Shown here piece by piece: positions 42,546 through 48,639 of a stretch of DNA of 64,000 bases. Made by a program: the position numbers and the translations under genes. Within the stretch, counting starts at the first letter, position 1; each line of letters opens with the position of its first letter. The notes beneath the pieces were generated by a model, which saw only the letters and a list, made by a program, of their open reading frames with translations, ran no database searches and was not told where the DNA came from. Source of the DNA: Thermodesulfovibrio sp. (GTDB taxonomy: Bacteria; Nitrospirota; Thermodesulfovibrionia; Thermodesulfovibrionales; UBA6898); NCBI GenBank assembly GCA_013824615.1, contig PNOC01000001.1, positions 62,001 through 126,000 of the forward strand. Direction: 5' to 3'.

Positions 42546-42574
42546 TTGACATAAAATGAAAATATTTATATTAT
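42546..42574 (+). promoter_or_regulatory. Strong sigma70-type promoter of the cytochrome operon
   Basis: TTGACA (42546-42551), 17-bp spacer, TATTAT (42569-42574): consensus -35 and near-consensus -10. It lies 29 bp before the cytochrome ATG, in an A/T-rich stretch between divergent operons. Confidence 0.88.
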
Positions 42575-42603
42575 GTATGACTATTAAATCAGGGAGGGCA
42601 GTA

Positions 42604-43614
42604 ATGAAACCAAGAAATATTATTCTTTATCTTACTCTGGCAGTGCTCGTTTCAACAGGGTTGCTTCTTGCCGGTTGTGAGACCCTGAAAACCTCTAAAC
42701 CGATCCTGCCCCTTAAGGAATATGAAAAGATGATTGCAGGGCGTCTTGATGCCAACTATATTGGGACAAACAACTGCCTTGCTGCCTGCCACGTCCATGA
42801 TAAGATCAAGCAGGATTTTGATGCCAGCACTATGGGAGTCCAGCTTTCAAAAAAATCCGGCATGCCGCTGGTCGACTGCGAGTCCTGTCACGGTCCGGGT
42901 AGCCTGGCCGTCGAAGGGCTTACCCCCGAGAAAGTTGCCGAAGACGCCAAGGCAGGCAAAAAGACTGCGTGCGATTATAAAACCCTGATCGATATACGAA
43001 ACCTGCCGGCCCAGGCGAAATCGCTTATCTGCCTTAAATGTCATACAGCAAACGCAACCTTCAACCTCCATAACTGGAATGCCGGAACGCATGCGATCAG
43101 TGATGTCTCCTGCTCTGACTGTCATAAGCTGCACGGGGGTTCTGACCTGAAGGTCAAACCGACTGAAATCGGTGAAATGTGCGAAAAATGCCATCTTGAA
43201 ACAAAGGCAGAATTTGCACTTCCCAGTCATCACCCCGTTCCCGAAAAACGCGTCTTCTGCAACGATTGCCATGACCCACACGGCTCAACGACCGACAAAA
43301 TGCTCAGAAAGATTACCGTCAAAGAGACCTGTACGCAATGTCATGCAGACAAGGAAGGGCCATTTACCTTTCAGCATGCGGAAAATATGGAGGACTGCAG
43401 AACCTGCCACAGTCCCCACGGGTCCCCATTTAATAATCTGCTGAATGTCCCGGGACCTTTTTTATGCCTGCAGTGTCATGCCGGACATCGGACAGGGGCA
43501 ACTACCACTGAGGAAAACAGGGCTGCCAGGAATACCCGATGCACCGATTGTCATTCAACAATACACGGAACAGATCTACCCTCTGCCAGCGGCAAGGGCA
43601 GATTTATACAGTAG
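42604..43614 (+). CDS. Decaheme c-type cytochrome lipoprotein, DmsE/MtrA-like
   Basis: A 336-aa exported multiheme cytochrome, probable electron carrier across the periplasm and outer membrane. The lipobox LLAG-C25 predicts a lipid-anchored protein. Nine canonical CXXCH sites begin at C92, C143, C170, C193, C219, C243, C265, C288 and C313. A tenth, C58-LAA-C62-H63, has one extra residue (CX3CH). Ten heme sites in about 330 residues is typical of the MtrA, PioA and DmsE group, which sits inside an outer-membrane beta-barrel. A matching barrel gene follows 8 bp later. GGGAGG precedes the ATG, 29 bp after a strong promoter. Confidence 0.93.
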   Translation: MKPRNIILYLTLAVLVSTGLLLAGCETLKTSKPILPLKEYEKMIAGRLDANYIGTNNCLAACHVHDKIKQDFDASTMGVQLSKKSGMPLVDCESCHGPGSLAVEGLTPEKVAEDAKAGKKTACDYKTLIDIRNLPAQAKSLICLKCHTANATFNLHNWNAGTHAISDVSCSDCHKLHGGSDLKVKPTEIGEMCEKCHLETKAEFALPSHHPVPEKRVFCNDCHDPHGSTTDKMLRKITVKETCTQCHADKEGPFTFQHAENMEDCRTCHSPHGSPFNNLLNVPGPFLCLQCHAGHRTGATTTEENRAARNTRCTDCHSTIHGTDLPSASGKGRFIQ

Positions 43615-43622
43615 GAGGAGAC

Positions 43623-45620
43623 ATGAAGAAATCCTTTTTCATCATTATGGTATCAATACTGATATTGTCGTCTCCGGCTTTCATGGCTTTTTCGGCTGCG
43701 GCGCCAGAACAGGCAACGGCAGCAGAGGAGGCAGCCCCGGCTGATGAGGCATATGTCTTTCCGTCTATCGCCCCGGAGGCTTCATTTTCTGCCGGTTATC
43801 GCCATGTCGATTTCAGCGGTTCGTCCCGTGTCGATGAATATGAATATCTGAAAAAATCCCTTGCAGTCGCCGGGGAGTACCGCCTCTTCAGATTTCCCCA
43901 TCGTTTTCATCTCGATATATCGGCAAAAAACAGCAAGGACTATTTCGGGGACATCAATTATTCATATGAAGATGTTGTGCTGTTCAGAGGACTGTTCAGG
44001 GGTCTGTATCATAACCTTGACACTCTCAGCCTGATTGACCTTAATCCTGCAACGCCGTCACCGGGGGTTCTTCAGCGCGATACCGACCTGAGTTACGGGG
44101 TGCGCTGGAATATGAGTAATGTCTTTCTGAGGTTTAAGACTCATGATTTTCCCTTTCATGTCTATTTTGACGGCACATCCATTATTAGAAAAGGTTCTCA
44201 ACAACAGAGGTTCCTGCTCGGGTCCGGCGGCAATAGCAGTATTATCAGAACTTCACAGGCAAGAGAGATAGACTGGAAGACGCAGAATCTCGTCGTCGGC
44301 ATAAACAGTCATCTCGGCCCGCTGGAACTTGATATATCCCACGGGGAGAAGAGATTTGACTCGGGAAACAGTAATGTTTTTTTTGATTCCTATACGGCTG
44401 TTACAGGCACGCCGGCACGGGCCGCCGGCATATATCCCCATAATCTCATTCCTGATTTTAAGGGGTCAACCAACGCAGTCAAACTGCATACGTCCTATAC
44501 AGGGGGACTTGTCGCCTCCATGACTCTCTCCAACTATAGCAGCGAAAACCAGTACAGCGGTGCCAAGGCAGACTATCTGGTGGGAGCGGGAGATATCATC
44601 TGGACCCTGAAGCCAAATCTGCAGGCCTATCTGAAATACCGGCACAAGGAAGTCAGCATCGACAACCCCGAGTCGGCCACGATGACAGATACCACAAACC
44701 CTGCCAACACCTATACCTATGCCGTTGAGCACGCAGTCACCTCTATCACGGACACCGTAAACGCCGGGATAAAATACCGGCCGTTCAAGGGAGTTTCCGT
44801 AAGAGCAGACTATGCCTATGACGACATCAGGCGCGATCACGTTGCTACATTGGCCATACCGGAGGGGACCAGAAAACATACTGCATCTTTGAGTGCCGAC
44901 ATAAGGCCCGTCAGGGGACTGATCCTGCAAGCGCGGTATGCTCACAAGGAGATTGACAACCCTGCGTACAATATCGACCCCAGCCGCTCTGATGAGGGAA
45001 AGATCTCTGCTACCTGGCTCCCGTTTCCTGTCGTGAGTACGACGATCAGTTACGGAATCTCCAGTGAACACCGGAACGATATCCATTGGCTTGAGACGGA
45101 TGGCTCCACAACGCATGGAGATGAACGAAACGTTAACAGAAACAGGCTGGTCGGAAGCGTAACGCTCACGGCTTTGAAGAACGTCGCCATAACCGGCAGT
45201 TTTGTCTACATACATAACAAAATCGAGCAGGACATTGAATACCACAGCGCCACCGGAACCCCTCAGGTATATCCGTCCGCACTGAACCGGGACATGGTGC
45301 AGAGCTACTCTCTGGATATGACCTATACTCCAGGTCGTAAGACGAGCATTACCGGAGGGATAACGCACTCCATAAGCTCCGGGTCCTTTAATCCTCTGAG
45401 CCCCGTTCTGCTGCAGCCGGTTTCAGTAGCATCCTTTTCCGAGATGAAGATGCGTGAAACTGTCCTGTCGACGAGCGGAGAGTACAGGATCAACAAAGGG
45501 ACCTCCATTGGTCTGCAGTATAAGTTCAGCGAGATCAGGGACGCACTGAACAATCCTTATGATGATATTGAAAACGGCAGAGCGCATATCGTGCTGCTGA
45601 CACTCTCAAAAAAATGGTAA
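43623..45620 (+). CDS. Outer-membrane beta-barrel, MtrB/PioB-like porin partner
   Basis: A 665-aa exported protein: a signal peptide (residues 1-28), an acidic Ala-rich linker, then a long series of alternating beta strands such as FHLDISAKNSKDYFGDINYSY, GVRWNMSNVFLRFKTHDF and TVNAGIKYRPFKGVSVRADYAY, ending in an aromatic residue (LLTLSKKW) as outer-membrane proteins do. It resembles the MtrB/PioB and Geobacter-type barrels of extracellular electron-transfer conduits. No CXXC motif is present near the N-terminus, unlike Shewanella MtrB. It is 8 bp after the decaheme gene, with AGGAGGAGAC upstream. Confidence 0.85.
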   Translation: MKKSFFIIMVSILILSSPAFMAFSAAAPEQATAAEEAAPADEAYVFPSIAPEASFSAGYRHVDFSGSSRVDEYEYLKKSLAVAGEYRLFRFPHRFHLDISAKNSKDYFGDINYSYEDVVLFRGLFRGLYHNLDTLSLIDLNPATPSPGVLQRDTDLSYGVRWNMSNVFLRFKTHDFPFHVYFDGTSIIRKGSQQQRFLLGSGGNSSIIRTSQAREIDWKTQNLVVGINSHLGPLELDISHGEKRFDSGNSNVFFDSYTAVTGTPARAAGIYPHNLIPDFKGSTNAVKLHTSYTGGLVASMTLSNYSSENQYSGAKADYLVGAGDIIWTLKPNLQAYLKYRHKEVSIDNPESATMTDTTNPANTYTYAVEHAVTSITDTVNAGIKYRPFKGVSVRADYAYDDIRRDHVATLAIPEGTRKHTASLSADIRPVRGLILQARYAHKEIDNPAYNIDPSRSDEGKISATWLPFPVVSTTISYGISSEHRNDIHWLETDGSTTHGDERNVNRNRLVGSVTLTALKNVAITGSFVYIHNKIEQDIEYHSATGTPQVYPSALNRDMVQSYSLDMTYTPGRKTSITGGITHSISSGSFNPLSPVLLQPVSVASFSEMKMRETVLSTSGEYRINKGTSIGLQYKFSEIRDALNNPYDDIENGRAHIVLLTLSKKW

Positions 45621-45631
45621 GAGGAATTTGA

Positions 45632-46567
45632 ATGATACCCAGACAGTCAGTTAATTTTTTTGCGCTTATCGCCTTCTGCTTTTTGCTGTTTACTGCATCT
45701 TCCGTTGGTGCAGCTGAAAAAACGGTAGGCGTCATTATGACCGGAAATATCCCGTATTACCGGGAAATACATAAGGCATTCACTGAGGGTCTTGCGGCAG
45801 AGGGTATCGGCCACGGTACTGTTGAAATCATACAGCAGACCCCGAATCCGGAGCCGATGTCCTGGACCAACGCTGCGAGAAAACTCGTGGCGGTCGGTGC
45901 TGATATTATTGTATCCTACGGGGCGCCTGCTACACTTTCTGTTCTGAATGAGACCACCGATATTCCCGTTGTTTTCGCAGGTGTTTATGACCCTCAGGGC
46001 ATTGGAGTGCTTGGGAAAAACGGGACGGGAGTCAGTTCTAAGGTTCCGGTTGGGAGCCTGCTGAAAAACTTCAAGAGCATAGCGGGGTTTTCAAATCTCG
46101 GCGTGGTCTACAGTGAATCAGAAAAGGATACGGTCATTCAAATGAACGAAGCTAAACAGCTGGAGGGCACCCTGAATTTCAAGATGACAAAGTTCAACAT
46201 CAAGAAATCTGACGATGCAGCCAGGATTGCGAATGTCGACGCCCTGTTTCTTACCACGGGTTGTGCTGCCCAGCACTGTGTCAGCAATATCCTCGGTCTG
46301 GCACGGAAAGCCAAACTGCCCACGGCAACCACCATCGGCGGAGGTGAAACCAGCGGGGTGATTCTCACCATAGCAGCCAATCCTCAGGAACAGGGCCGTG
46401 AAGCAGCAAGGATTGTTGCCAAGGTGGTCAAGGGAGCAAAGATAGCCACTATTCCGCTCCAAATGCCCAGGAAAATTGACATGATTATCAACCTGAAAGA
46501 GGCAAATGAATTGGGACTGAAAGTACCCTTCGACCTGCTCACCTCAGCCACGCGGGTAATTAAATGA
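45632..46567 (+). CDS. Periplasmic ABC-type substrate-binding protein (ABC_sub_bind family)
   Basis: A 311-aa periplasmic binding protein of the type I fold: a signal peptide (about 1-28, ending SSVGAAEK), then VGVIMTGNIPYYREIHKAFTEGL, GADIIVSYGAPATLSVLN, IPVVFAGVYDPQGIGV, FSNLGVVYSESEKDT and TTIGGGETSGVILTIAANP. No permease or ATPase gene accompanies it, so uptake is unlikely. Its stop overlaps the start of the chemoreceptor gene (ATGA), so it is more likely a ligand-sensing partner of that receptor. The ligand is unknown; two Cys (TTGCAAQHC) are unusual for the family. Confidence 0.88.
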   Translation: MIPRQSVNFFALIAFCFLLFTASSVGAAEKTVGVIMTGNIPYYREIHKAFTEGLAAEGIGHGTVEIIQQTPNPEPMSWTNAARKLVAVGADIIVSYGAPATLSVLNETTDIPVVFAGVYDPQGIGVLGKNGTGVSSKVPVGSLLKNFKSIAGFSNLGVVYSESEKDTVIQMNEAKQLEGTLNFKMTKFNIKKSDDAARIANVDALFLTTGCAAQHCVSNILGLARKAKLPTATTIGGGETSGVILTIAANPQEQGREAARIVAKVVKGAKIATIPLQMPRKIDMIINLKEANELGLKVPFDLLTSATRVIK

Positions 46568-48639
46568 ATAACAACCTGAACCTGCAGCAGAAGTCACTTG
46601 GCATAGTTGCGGGTATACTGTTTATTATTCTGGCCATCAATACTGCTGTCCTTACGTATATTGCATCGAATAAATATGAAACCGCCATCCTTTCCAAAAC
46701 CTCTGCCATTGGGGAAGGCATGCAGCGTGAACTGGCCAAGGTGCTGACGCTGGGGGTGCCGGTTGAATCACTGGAGGGAGTCAGTGAGAAACTGAAAGAT
46801 CTGGTCGCCCGGGACAAGGCGATAGCCTATGCAATGATTACAGACACCACAGGAAAAGTGTTGCATCATAATGATGCCGGCATCGTGGGAAAAGAACTGA
46901 AGGACACCGCTGCAAAGAACAGTGCAACCTCTGACAAGCAGCTCGTACAGACGGTAGATTCTTTTTACGATCTGTCCTTCCCGCTGCTGAGCGCGGAAAA
47001 TAAAGTGGTCGGGGCCCTTCGTGTAGGAGTTTACCTCAAGGCAATAAAGGCGCAGATTTATCAGCTCCTGCTCTGGGCCTTCGGTATCTCATCCTTCTGT
47101 TTCTTGCTCTCGCTGGGGCTGGTGCATGTTTCTATCAGAAAATTTATTACCCGGCCCATTCTCACGATGGAAAAGGCAGCAGACCGGATGGCCTCAGGAG
47201 ATCTGACCTATGTGGTCCATGTCGAGGGACGGGATGAACTCGCCTCTCTCGGCAAGGCCATCAACCGGATGTCGCTGAACCTCACCGATATGTTGTCGAA
47301 AGTCGGCAGTGTCACCAACAGCGTCTCCGGGGTGACTTCGGAAATCGCAGGCCTTGCGCATAATGTTATGGCTGCCGTGGATGTTCAGAAAAAAGCACTT
47401 GAGGACACTGCCCAGACGATAGAGGGCATGGACAACTCTATCACTGAGGTGGCAACCAGTGCCGAAAGTCTTTCAGAGCTTGCGAATGATACCTCCTCAT
47501 CTATCATGCAGATGACCGCATCCATCGAGAGGGTCGCCGAGAATAGCAACATTTTCAGCGAAACAGCACATGACACTGCTTCATCTATCGAGGAGATGAT
47601 TTCAACGATTAAGCAGATCGCAGAGAGTATTGACACCCTGTCGTCGGCATCGGATGCCATTGCCTCGTCCATTGACGAAGTCAATGCCACCACAAAAGAT
47701 ATTGAGAGCCGCGCCAATGACTCGGTCGGACTGGCCGAGGCGGTTATGGTCAAAGCTTCTGACAGGGGTATGCAGGCTGCCAATGCAGCCATACAGGGCA
47801 TCGAGAATATCAAGAAAAGCGTAGTGGCCCTGTCGGAAGTAATTAATATGCTGGGCATGCGCACCAATGACATCGGGAAAATCCTGAACGTCATCGACGA
47901 CGTTGCAGACCAGACCAACCTCCTTGCCCTGAATGCTGCAATCCTCGCTTCTAAGGCAGGCGAGCACGGAAAGGGTTTTACGATTGTTGCCGATGAAATC
48001 AAAAATCTGGCCGAACGTGCATCCGTCTCAACGAATGAAATAGCAACACTGATCAGATCTTTTCAGGACGTTACCAAGTCAAGCATCCGCATGGCCTCCG
48101 ACGGGATACAAACCGTTGAAAGCGGGCTGCTTCTCGTGCGCGATGTCAATACTGCTTTACAGGATATATCTGCAAGTTCCCGGGAGTCAACCGAGATGGC
48201 CCGTGCAATTCAGCGGGCAACGGCCGAGGAATCCATTGTAATCAAGCAGATCACCGATGCCGTAGGCAACATGGCTGAACAGACCGATAATATTTCACGC
48301 GCCATTCAGGAACAATCCAAGGGAAGCAGATTCATCATCGAGGCAACCGACAGGGTCAAGGAACTTTCAAGTCAGGTCAAGAAAGCCACAAATGAGCAGA
48401 GGGACGGCAGCAGGCAAATTGCCCATGTTATTGAAAACGTAACGGATAAGGCCTCCAAGATTGCCGGCGCAACAGGCAAGCAGAAGGAGAAGAGCATCGA
48501 AATTGTCCGGTCCATGGAAAAGATCCTGAACACGACCAGCAACCTGATTCAATCGTCAAACGAAATGAACTCGGTCATCACTTCTCTTAAAGAAGAAGCG
48601 GTAAACCTCATTGAGGAGCTTCAAAAATTTAAGGTATAA
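46564..48639 (+). CDS. Methyl-accepting chemotaxis protein
   Basis: A 691-aa transmembrane chemoreceptor: TM1 (about 12-35), a periplasmic single-Cache-like domain (about 36-165, YAMITDTTGKVLHHND), TM2 (about 166-192), HAMP (about 195-245, PILTMEKAADRMASGDLTY) and a long cytoplasmic signalling coil. The hairpin tip reads DQTNLLALNAAILASKAGEHGKGF, the variant seen in many delta-type bacteria in place of NAAIEAARAGE. There is no C-terminal NWETF-type pentapeptide. Translation is coupled to the binding-protein gene. It probably directs movement in response to that protein's ligand or to redox state. Confidence 0.93.
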   Translation: MNNNLNLQQKSLGIVAGILFIILAINTAVLTYIASNKYETAILSKTSAIGEGMQRELAKVLTLGVPVESLEGVSEKLKDLVARDKAIAYAMITDTTGKVLHHNDAGIVGKELKDTAAKNSATSDKQLVQTVDSFYDLSFPLLSAENKVVGALRVGVYLKAIKAQIYQLLLWAFGISSFCFLLSLGLVHVSIRKFITRPILTMEKAADRMASGDLTYVVHVEGRDELASLGKAINRMSLNLTDMLSKVGSVTNSVSGVTSEIAGLAHNVMAAVDVQKKALEDTAQTIEGMDNSITEVATSAESLSELANDTSSSIMQMTASIERVAENSNIFSETAHDTASSIEEMISTIKQIAESIDTLSSASDAIASSIDEVNATTKDIESRANDSVGLAEAVMVKASDRGMQAANAAIQGIENIKKSVVALSEVINMLGMRTNDIGKILNVIDDVADQTNLLALNAAILASKAGEHGKGFTIVADEIKNLAERASVSTNEIATLIRSFQDVTKSSIRMASDGIQTVESGLLLVRDVNTALQDISASSRESTEMARAIQRATAEESIVIKQITDAVGNMAEQTDNISRAIQEQSKGSRFIIEATDRVKELSSQVKKATNEQRDGSRQIAHVIENVTDKASKIAGATGKQKEKSIEIVRSMEKILNTTSNLIQSSNEMNSVITSLKEEAVNLIEELQKFKV

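Follow-up and report, generated by a model that had tools for sequence, protein, structure and literature searches.

Most work on how bacteria find, recognise and commit themselves to an extracellular electron acceptor has been done with Shewanella and Geobacter, whose genes for sensing and for the electron conduit lie apart. In Thermodesulfovibrio sp. (GCA_013824615.1), an operon found in a 64,000-nucleotide stretch of DNA, the whole of which is called here the window, seems to carry both. The question raised by this locus is what a periplasmic binding protein and a chemoreceptor are doing beside a decaheme cytochrome and its barrel, and where the signal of such a receptor would go.

Organisation of the operon

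The preliminary description placed four genes behind one strong promoter, and this layout was confirmed from the sequence and its open reading frames (Table 1), with gaps of 8 bp between cytochrome and barrel and of 11 bp between barrel and binding protein (SBP), and a 4-bp ATGA overlap between SBP and receptor. Alternative, longer reading frames begin at 42556 for the cytochrome and at 43539 for the barrel. Both starts are probably poorer choices; the one at 42556 is disfavoured because the lipobox cysteine (Cys25) fits the start at 42604 and the -10 hexamer falls within the longer frame. The promoter is kept about 46-70 bp 5' of the start in 12 relatives from the same and a neighbouring lineage, and the flanking upstream DNA has diverged.

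Table 1. Promoter and genes of the conduit operon in the window
Feature	Position	Strand	Length	Evidence
sigma-70-type promoter, TTGACA-17-TATTAT	42546..42574	+		11/12 consensus match
Decaheme outer-membrane lipoprotein cytochrome, DmsE/MtrA type	42604..43614	+	336 aa	TIGR03508, ten haem sites, lipobox Cys, 6r2q chain A
MtrB/PioB-type outer-membrane beta-barrel	43623..45620	+	665 aa	PF11854, fold match 6r2q chain B
Periplasmic ABC_sub_bind (TrpX-fold) binding protein (SBP)	45632..46567	+	311 aa	PF04392, fold match 3lft
Transmembrane receptor sCache-HAMP-MCPsignal, long '64H-type' arms, tip NAAILASKAGEHGKGF	46564..48639	+	691 aa	Pfam, arm lengths, tip

Near-consensus sigma-70 promoters were also observed 5' of the conduit in most of the close loci that carry a receptor of the window's type, and they were mostly absent from the loci of kinase type and of surface-cytochrome type described below.

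The cytochrome and the barrel

The cytochrome scored 238.7 bits against the DmsE family TIGR03508, for which the curated cut-off is 192.2. Its haem motifs are nine CXXCH and one CX3CH (CLAACH), and all ten haem-binding sites, as well as the lipobox cysteine, are invariant across 40 homologues. Its profile matches chain A of PDB entry 6r2q (2.8e-53), which we take to be MtrA of the Mtr complex; the sequence file calls this chain 'Cystathionine beta-synthase', which is probably a mislabelling. The barrel lies above the gathering cut-off of MtrB_PioB (PF11854; 31.5 bits against 23) and is only remotely related to characterised MtrB (11% identity). Its AlphaFold2 model (pLDDT 87) gave as top fold match chain B of the same entry ('Structure of the Mtr complex'; E 5.7e-20, TM 0.72/0.74), the runner-up (5e-9) being about eleven orders of magnitude behind. 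Since the profile and fold matches fall on chains A and B of one solved Mtr complex, the predicted assignment of the pair to the porin-cytochrome conduits of Mtr type is solid, as the preliminary description had supposed from the decaheme lipoprotein and the MtrB/PioB-like barrel.

Like the MtrCAB/MtrAB conduits of Shewanella (6r2q), the pair consists of a decaheme cytochrome and a large barrel; unlike them, its cytochrome is a lipoprotein, and an SBP and a receptor are added. The window operon also differs from a three-part Pcc/Mtr cluster in the absence of a surface multiheme cytochrome, which is present in one type of relative (type C, below) and in some others. The nearest named families for both proteins are those of OmcK (GSU2203) and GSU2204 of Geobacter sulfurreducens, likewise an adjacent decaheme-barrel pair, which is up-regulated with iron oxides (PMC4070692), but the window proteins score below both cut-offs (NF041028, 222 of 325 bits; NF041027, 113 of 350 bits). 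The host genome encodes other multiheme cytochromes, among them two ten-haem lipoprotein cytochromes that are clustered on contig 4; this second probable electron-transfer locus (L218:3700-10413) further contains a gene for a 407-aa protein with a signal peptide and one for a nine-haem protein.

Conservation of the sensing genes beside the conduit

The fate of the SBP and receptor genes was followed in loci collected by similarity to the cytochrome or the barrel, and not via the sensor. Neighbours were read on both sides, including 80 loci from named genomes, and partner genes were identified by Pfam. The barrel is present in 65 of 200 genomes of the class, and 97 distinct barrel loci from Nitrospirota and Desulfobacterota were retained after removal of duplicates; these counts reflect the relatives reachable by the searches and come mostly from MAGs, so that absences are uncertain. 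In 79 of the 88 loci readable past the barrel the next gene encodes the SBP, and in nine it does not. Beyond the SBP, 77 loci could be read, and in 74 of these a gene of a sensor cassette follows the SBP or, at two loci, an MCP precedes the cytochrome. Several types could be distinguished. A receptor like that of the window follows the SBP at 36 loci and lies upstream of the cytochrome, still linked, at 2 more (G038/G127). At 27 loci a PhnD-like binding protein comes next, usually followed by a HisKA kinase, a few of these type B loci showing the PhnD gene alone. A surface multiheme cytochrome and then a different MCP are found at 8 loci (type C), and two other MCPs at 1 locus.

Chance adjacency of the SBP to the conduit is ruled out by its retention in 79 of 88 loci and by the presence of a sensor in most. 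The preliminary description had asked whether the SBP and receptor genes separate freely from the cytochrome-barrel pair in related genomes, and they do not. As judged from family assignments, the same kind of SBP stays with the conduit across two phyla, and the output protein gives way to a histidine kinase or to another class of receptor. Such linkage lets the conduit name its own sensor.

The SBP and the receptor

The SBP matches ABC_sub_bind (PF04392) with 104.9 bits for a cut-off of 25.9. Its model has a pLDDT of 91.5 and resembles best 3lft, an L-Trp complex (TM 0.85). In spite of this fold, the protein reaches just 126.7 of the 390 bits set for the TrpX equivalog NF041285, so tryptophan should not be assumed to be its ligand. 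No transporter gene adjoins the window operon, in agreement with the earlier reading of a binding protein deprived of transporter, and none was found among the Pfam-identified neighbours in the relatives. The host genome contains only one other PF04392 match. This gene, on contig 79 (about L219:1107-2276), stands beside a gene for a membrane protein that is truncated where the contig ends.

In the receptor, sCache_3_2, HAMP and MCPsignal domains were all found above their Pfam cut-offs, together with two transmembrane segments. The SBP gene thus adjoins a membrane sensor gene, as in a TorT/TorS-like pair at the gene level. SBP-activated kinases are usually gene-linked to their SBP: 10 of 11 characterised cases are so, and of the chemoreceptors that pair with an SBP 3 of 11 (PMC11113362). 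A ligand-sensing pair in the operon of the conduit, as first proposed, is supported, and the pair is kept together across relatives. Among receptor-type loci, the distances between SBPs correlate with those between MCP signalling domains beyond what the conduit accounts for (partial r 0.74, permutation p 0.0005); no coevolution of the SBP specific to the sensor domain was found in these loci after controlling for the signalling domain (partial r -0.02).

Class and likely output of the receptor

The arms of the receptor measure 231 and 224 aa, against 132 for the N-terminal arm of Tsr by the same rule, and on these predicted lengths the receptor belongs to the long, 64H-type class. Its tip reads NAAILA.KAGE in place of the usual NAAIEAARAGE of most MCPs in the host genome. 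The MCPs of a che cluster on contig 62 of the host (C62) share this tip, and the length of their C-terminal arm agrees where measurable. C62 lies outside the flagellar genes, in the order CheA, ATPase, CheW. Class-specific receptor signalling has been argued for Geobacter (PMC2577667), and by class and tip we infer that the receptor would pair with the C62 CheA. A CheA of C62 type is encoded in 29 of the 31 genomes carrying the window-type operon. C62-type CheA genes with in-frame stop codons were noted at G107:C104 and G119:C27. The flagellar gene flhA is found in 6 of these 31 carriers, the host among them, and in 16 of the 21 carriers of other versions (Fisher p 6e-5). The comparisons of CheA and of flhA treat related genomes as independent, are not corrected for shared ancestry and draw mostly on MAGs, in which an absence is uncertain. 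A PilT-family ATPase is encoded in all 28 carriers tested. The match of tip and class to C62, the distribution of C62-type CheA and flhA and the constancy of the PilT family make surface behaviour the better guess, and probably a more likely output than swimming.

The preliminary description had the operon couple respiration of an external acceptor to movement toward it. The sensing receptor of this proposal stands, whereas swimming taxis as the general output does not. A receptor that steers flagellar swimming (energy taxis) toward the external acceptor of the conduit is unlikely, even though the host has flhA, with an adjoining che locus on contig 88, and the type C relatives carry MCPs with the NAAIEAARAGE tip beside their conduit, flhA being present in 7 of the 9 type C/D genomes. 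A precedent exists in Shewanella, where the Cache-domain MCP SO_2240 and the Mtr genes mtrBC/omcA are both required for congregation at minerals (PMC5789149); in that case the loci are separate by their gene numbers, no SBP has been described and the behaviour is flagellar. Against this reading, flhA is missing from 25 of the 31 genomes with the receptor version, among them two congeners with a completeness rating of 100% (G066 and G134), the class and tip of the receptor match the non-flagellar C62 cluster, and a kinase replaces the receptor in many relatives. As a general output, flagellar taxis was rejected on the flhA distribution. In this host, which carries flhA, swimming taxis is possible, without being the general function.

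Exchange of the SBP and sensor under a constant conduit

The position of five Nitrospirota loci of kinase type (L065, L067, L072, L076 and L078) depends on the tree: by cytochrome and by barrel they fall within the receptor-type loci, and by SBP they branch outside them. In AU tests, for which the groups were named only after the trees had been inspected, the SBP data rejected the conduit clade (p-AU 9.6e-6) and the barrel data rejected the SBP clade (p-AU 1.9e-4). The conflict shows that the SBP is exchanged as a unit with the sensor, and both remain with a conduit that does not change.

In several relatives a HisKA kinase and an NtrC-type regulator close the cassette within one gene run, which favours another reading, in which the cassette would sense the acceptor and control expression of the conduit, as TorT/TorS/TorR do for torCAD. 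For the window we consider such autoregulation quite improbable, its version having as output an MCP without DNA-binding regulator, under a near-consensus and apparently basal sigma-70 promoter. Control by sigma-54, on which the NtrC-type regulators found in some relatives might act, was rejected, since no convincing site was found 5' of the conduit in loci of the kinase/NtrC kind. Least probable, and very doubtful, is a role of the SBP as an orphan scavenger of solutes (an amino acid or an anion, with a distant permease) that hitch-hikes in the operon while the receptor senses its own ligand through sCache: its fold is that of the uptake proteins TrpX and CD0873 and sCache domains usually bind ligands directly, but transporter genes are lacking from both sets of neighbours, the SBP lineage changes with the type of sensor and not with the conduit, and the host has its single further PF04392 match and an SBP far below the TrpX cut-off.

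Proposed mechanism and relation to known systems

We return to the reading preferred here, to which we give a probability of roughly 0.6: the operon would wire a TorT/TorS-like sensing cassette into an extracellular electron conduit, with an output that passes through a C62-type CheA array and bears on surface behaviour rather than on swimming. The decaheme lipoprotein, lodged inside the MtrB-type barrel, would conduct electrons across the outer membrane and be encoded with its dedicated sensing cassette. In the periplasm the SBP would bind a small soluble ligand that probably relates to what the conduit uses as electron acceptor, donor or shuttle, and may hand it to the sCache domain of the receptor, much as TMAO reaches TorS through TorT. 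Signalling would then continue from the receptor to a separate array with the 64H-type CheA of contig 62, and this array would more likely act on surface behaviour, by type IV pili, matrix or a second messenger, than on flagellar swimming. The wider proposal, of a modular in-operon sensing arm across both phyla, with an interchangeable output (long-class MCP, other MCP or histidine kinase) fitted to the array of the host and steering surface colonisation or pili, not swimming, in mostly non-flagellated bacteria, is tentative, and we put it somewhat below even odds.

Judged by analogy, TorT/TorS is the closest working analogue, with a binding protein beside a membrane sensor in the service of a respiratory system, that of TMAO (PMC6814406). 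The present case differs in that the genes of the cassette form part of the conduit operon and that MCP and kinase classes replace one another as output protein. A word search of three surveys of porin-cytochrome or multiheme clusters (PMC12133095, PMC4245776, PMC11475568) returned none of the terms for sensor genes that were looked for, and no description of the conduit with an SBP-sensor, or of the exchange of sensor types, was found in the open-licence papers searched, a scope that does not prove novelty. The parts are known; a conduit joined with an SBP and an exchangeable sensor is apparently a new arrangement. Extracellular respiration seems to bring a built-in sensor, though probably not for swimming. 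The ligand of one soluble protein, the SBP, would hint at what the largely uncultured carriers respire, and the natural swaps between receptor and kinase are ready-made comparisons.

For the array itself, the Esn network of Geobacter (MCP, CheW, CheA and cyclase) links an MCP system to growth on electrodes, for which Esn is needed (PMC5585712). The CheA-ATPase-CheW order of C62 is that of the annotated GSU2222-2220, the two being compared by gene order only; unlike the window receptor, EsnA belongs to class 40H, has a GAF domain and lacks a periplasmic sensor. Contig 62 (L208:5630-8485) also encodes a 951-aa MCP that carries a PhnD-like domain (PF12974) after its signalling domain. This protein has no further transmembrane segment, so that the PhnD-like domain is predicted to be cytoplasmic, and the genes that follow encode a binding protein of the PBP_like_2 type and another MCP.
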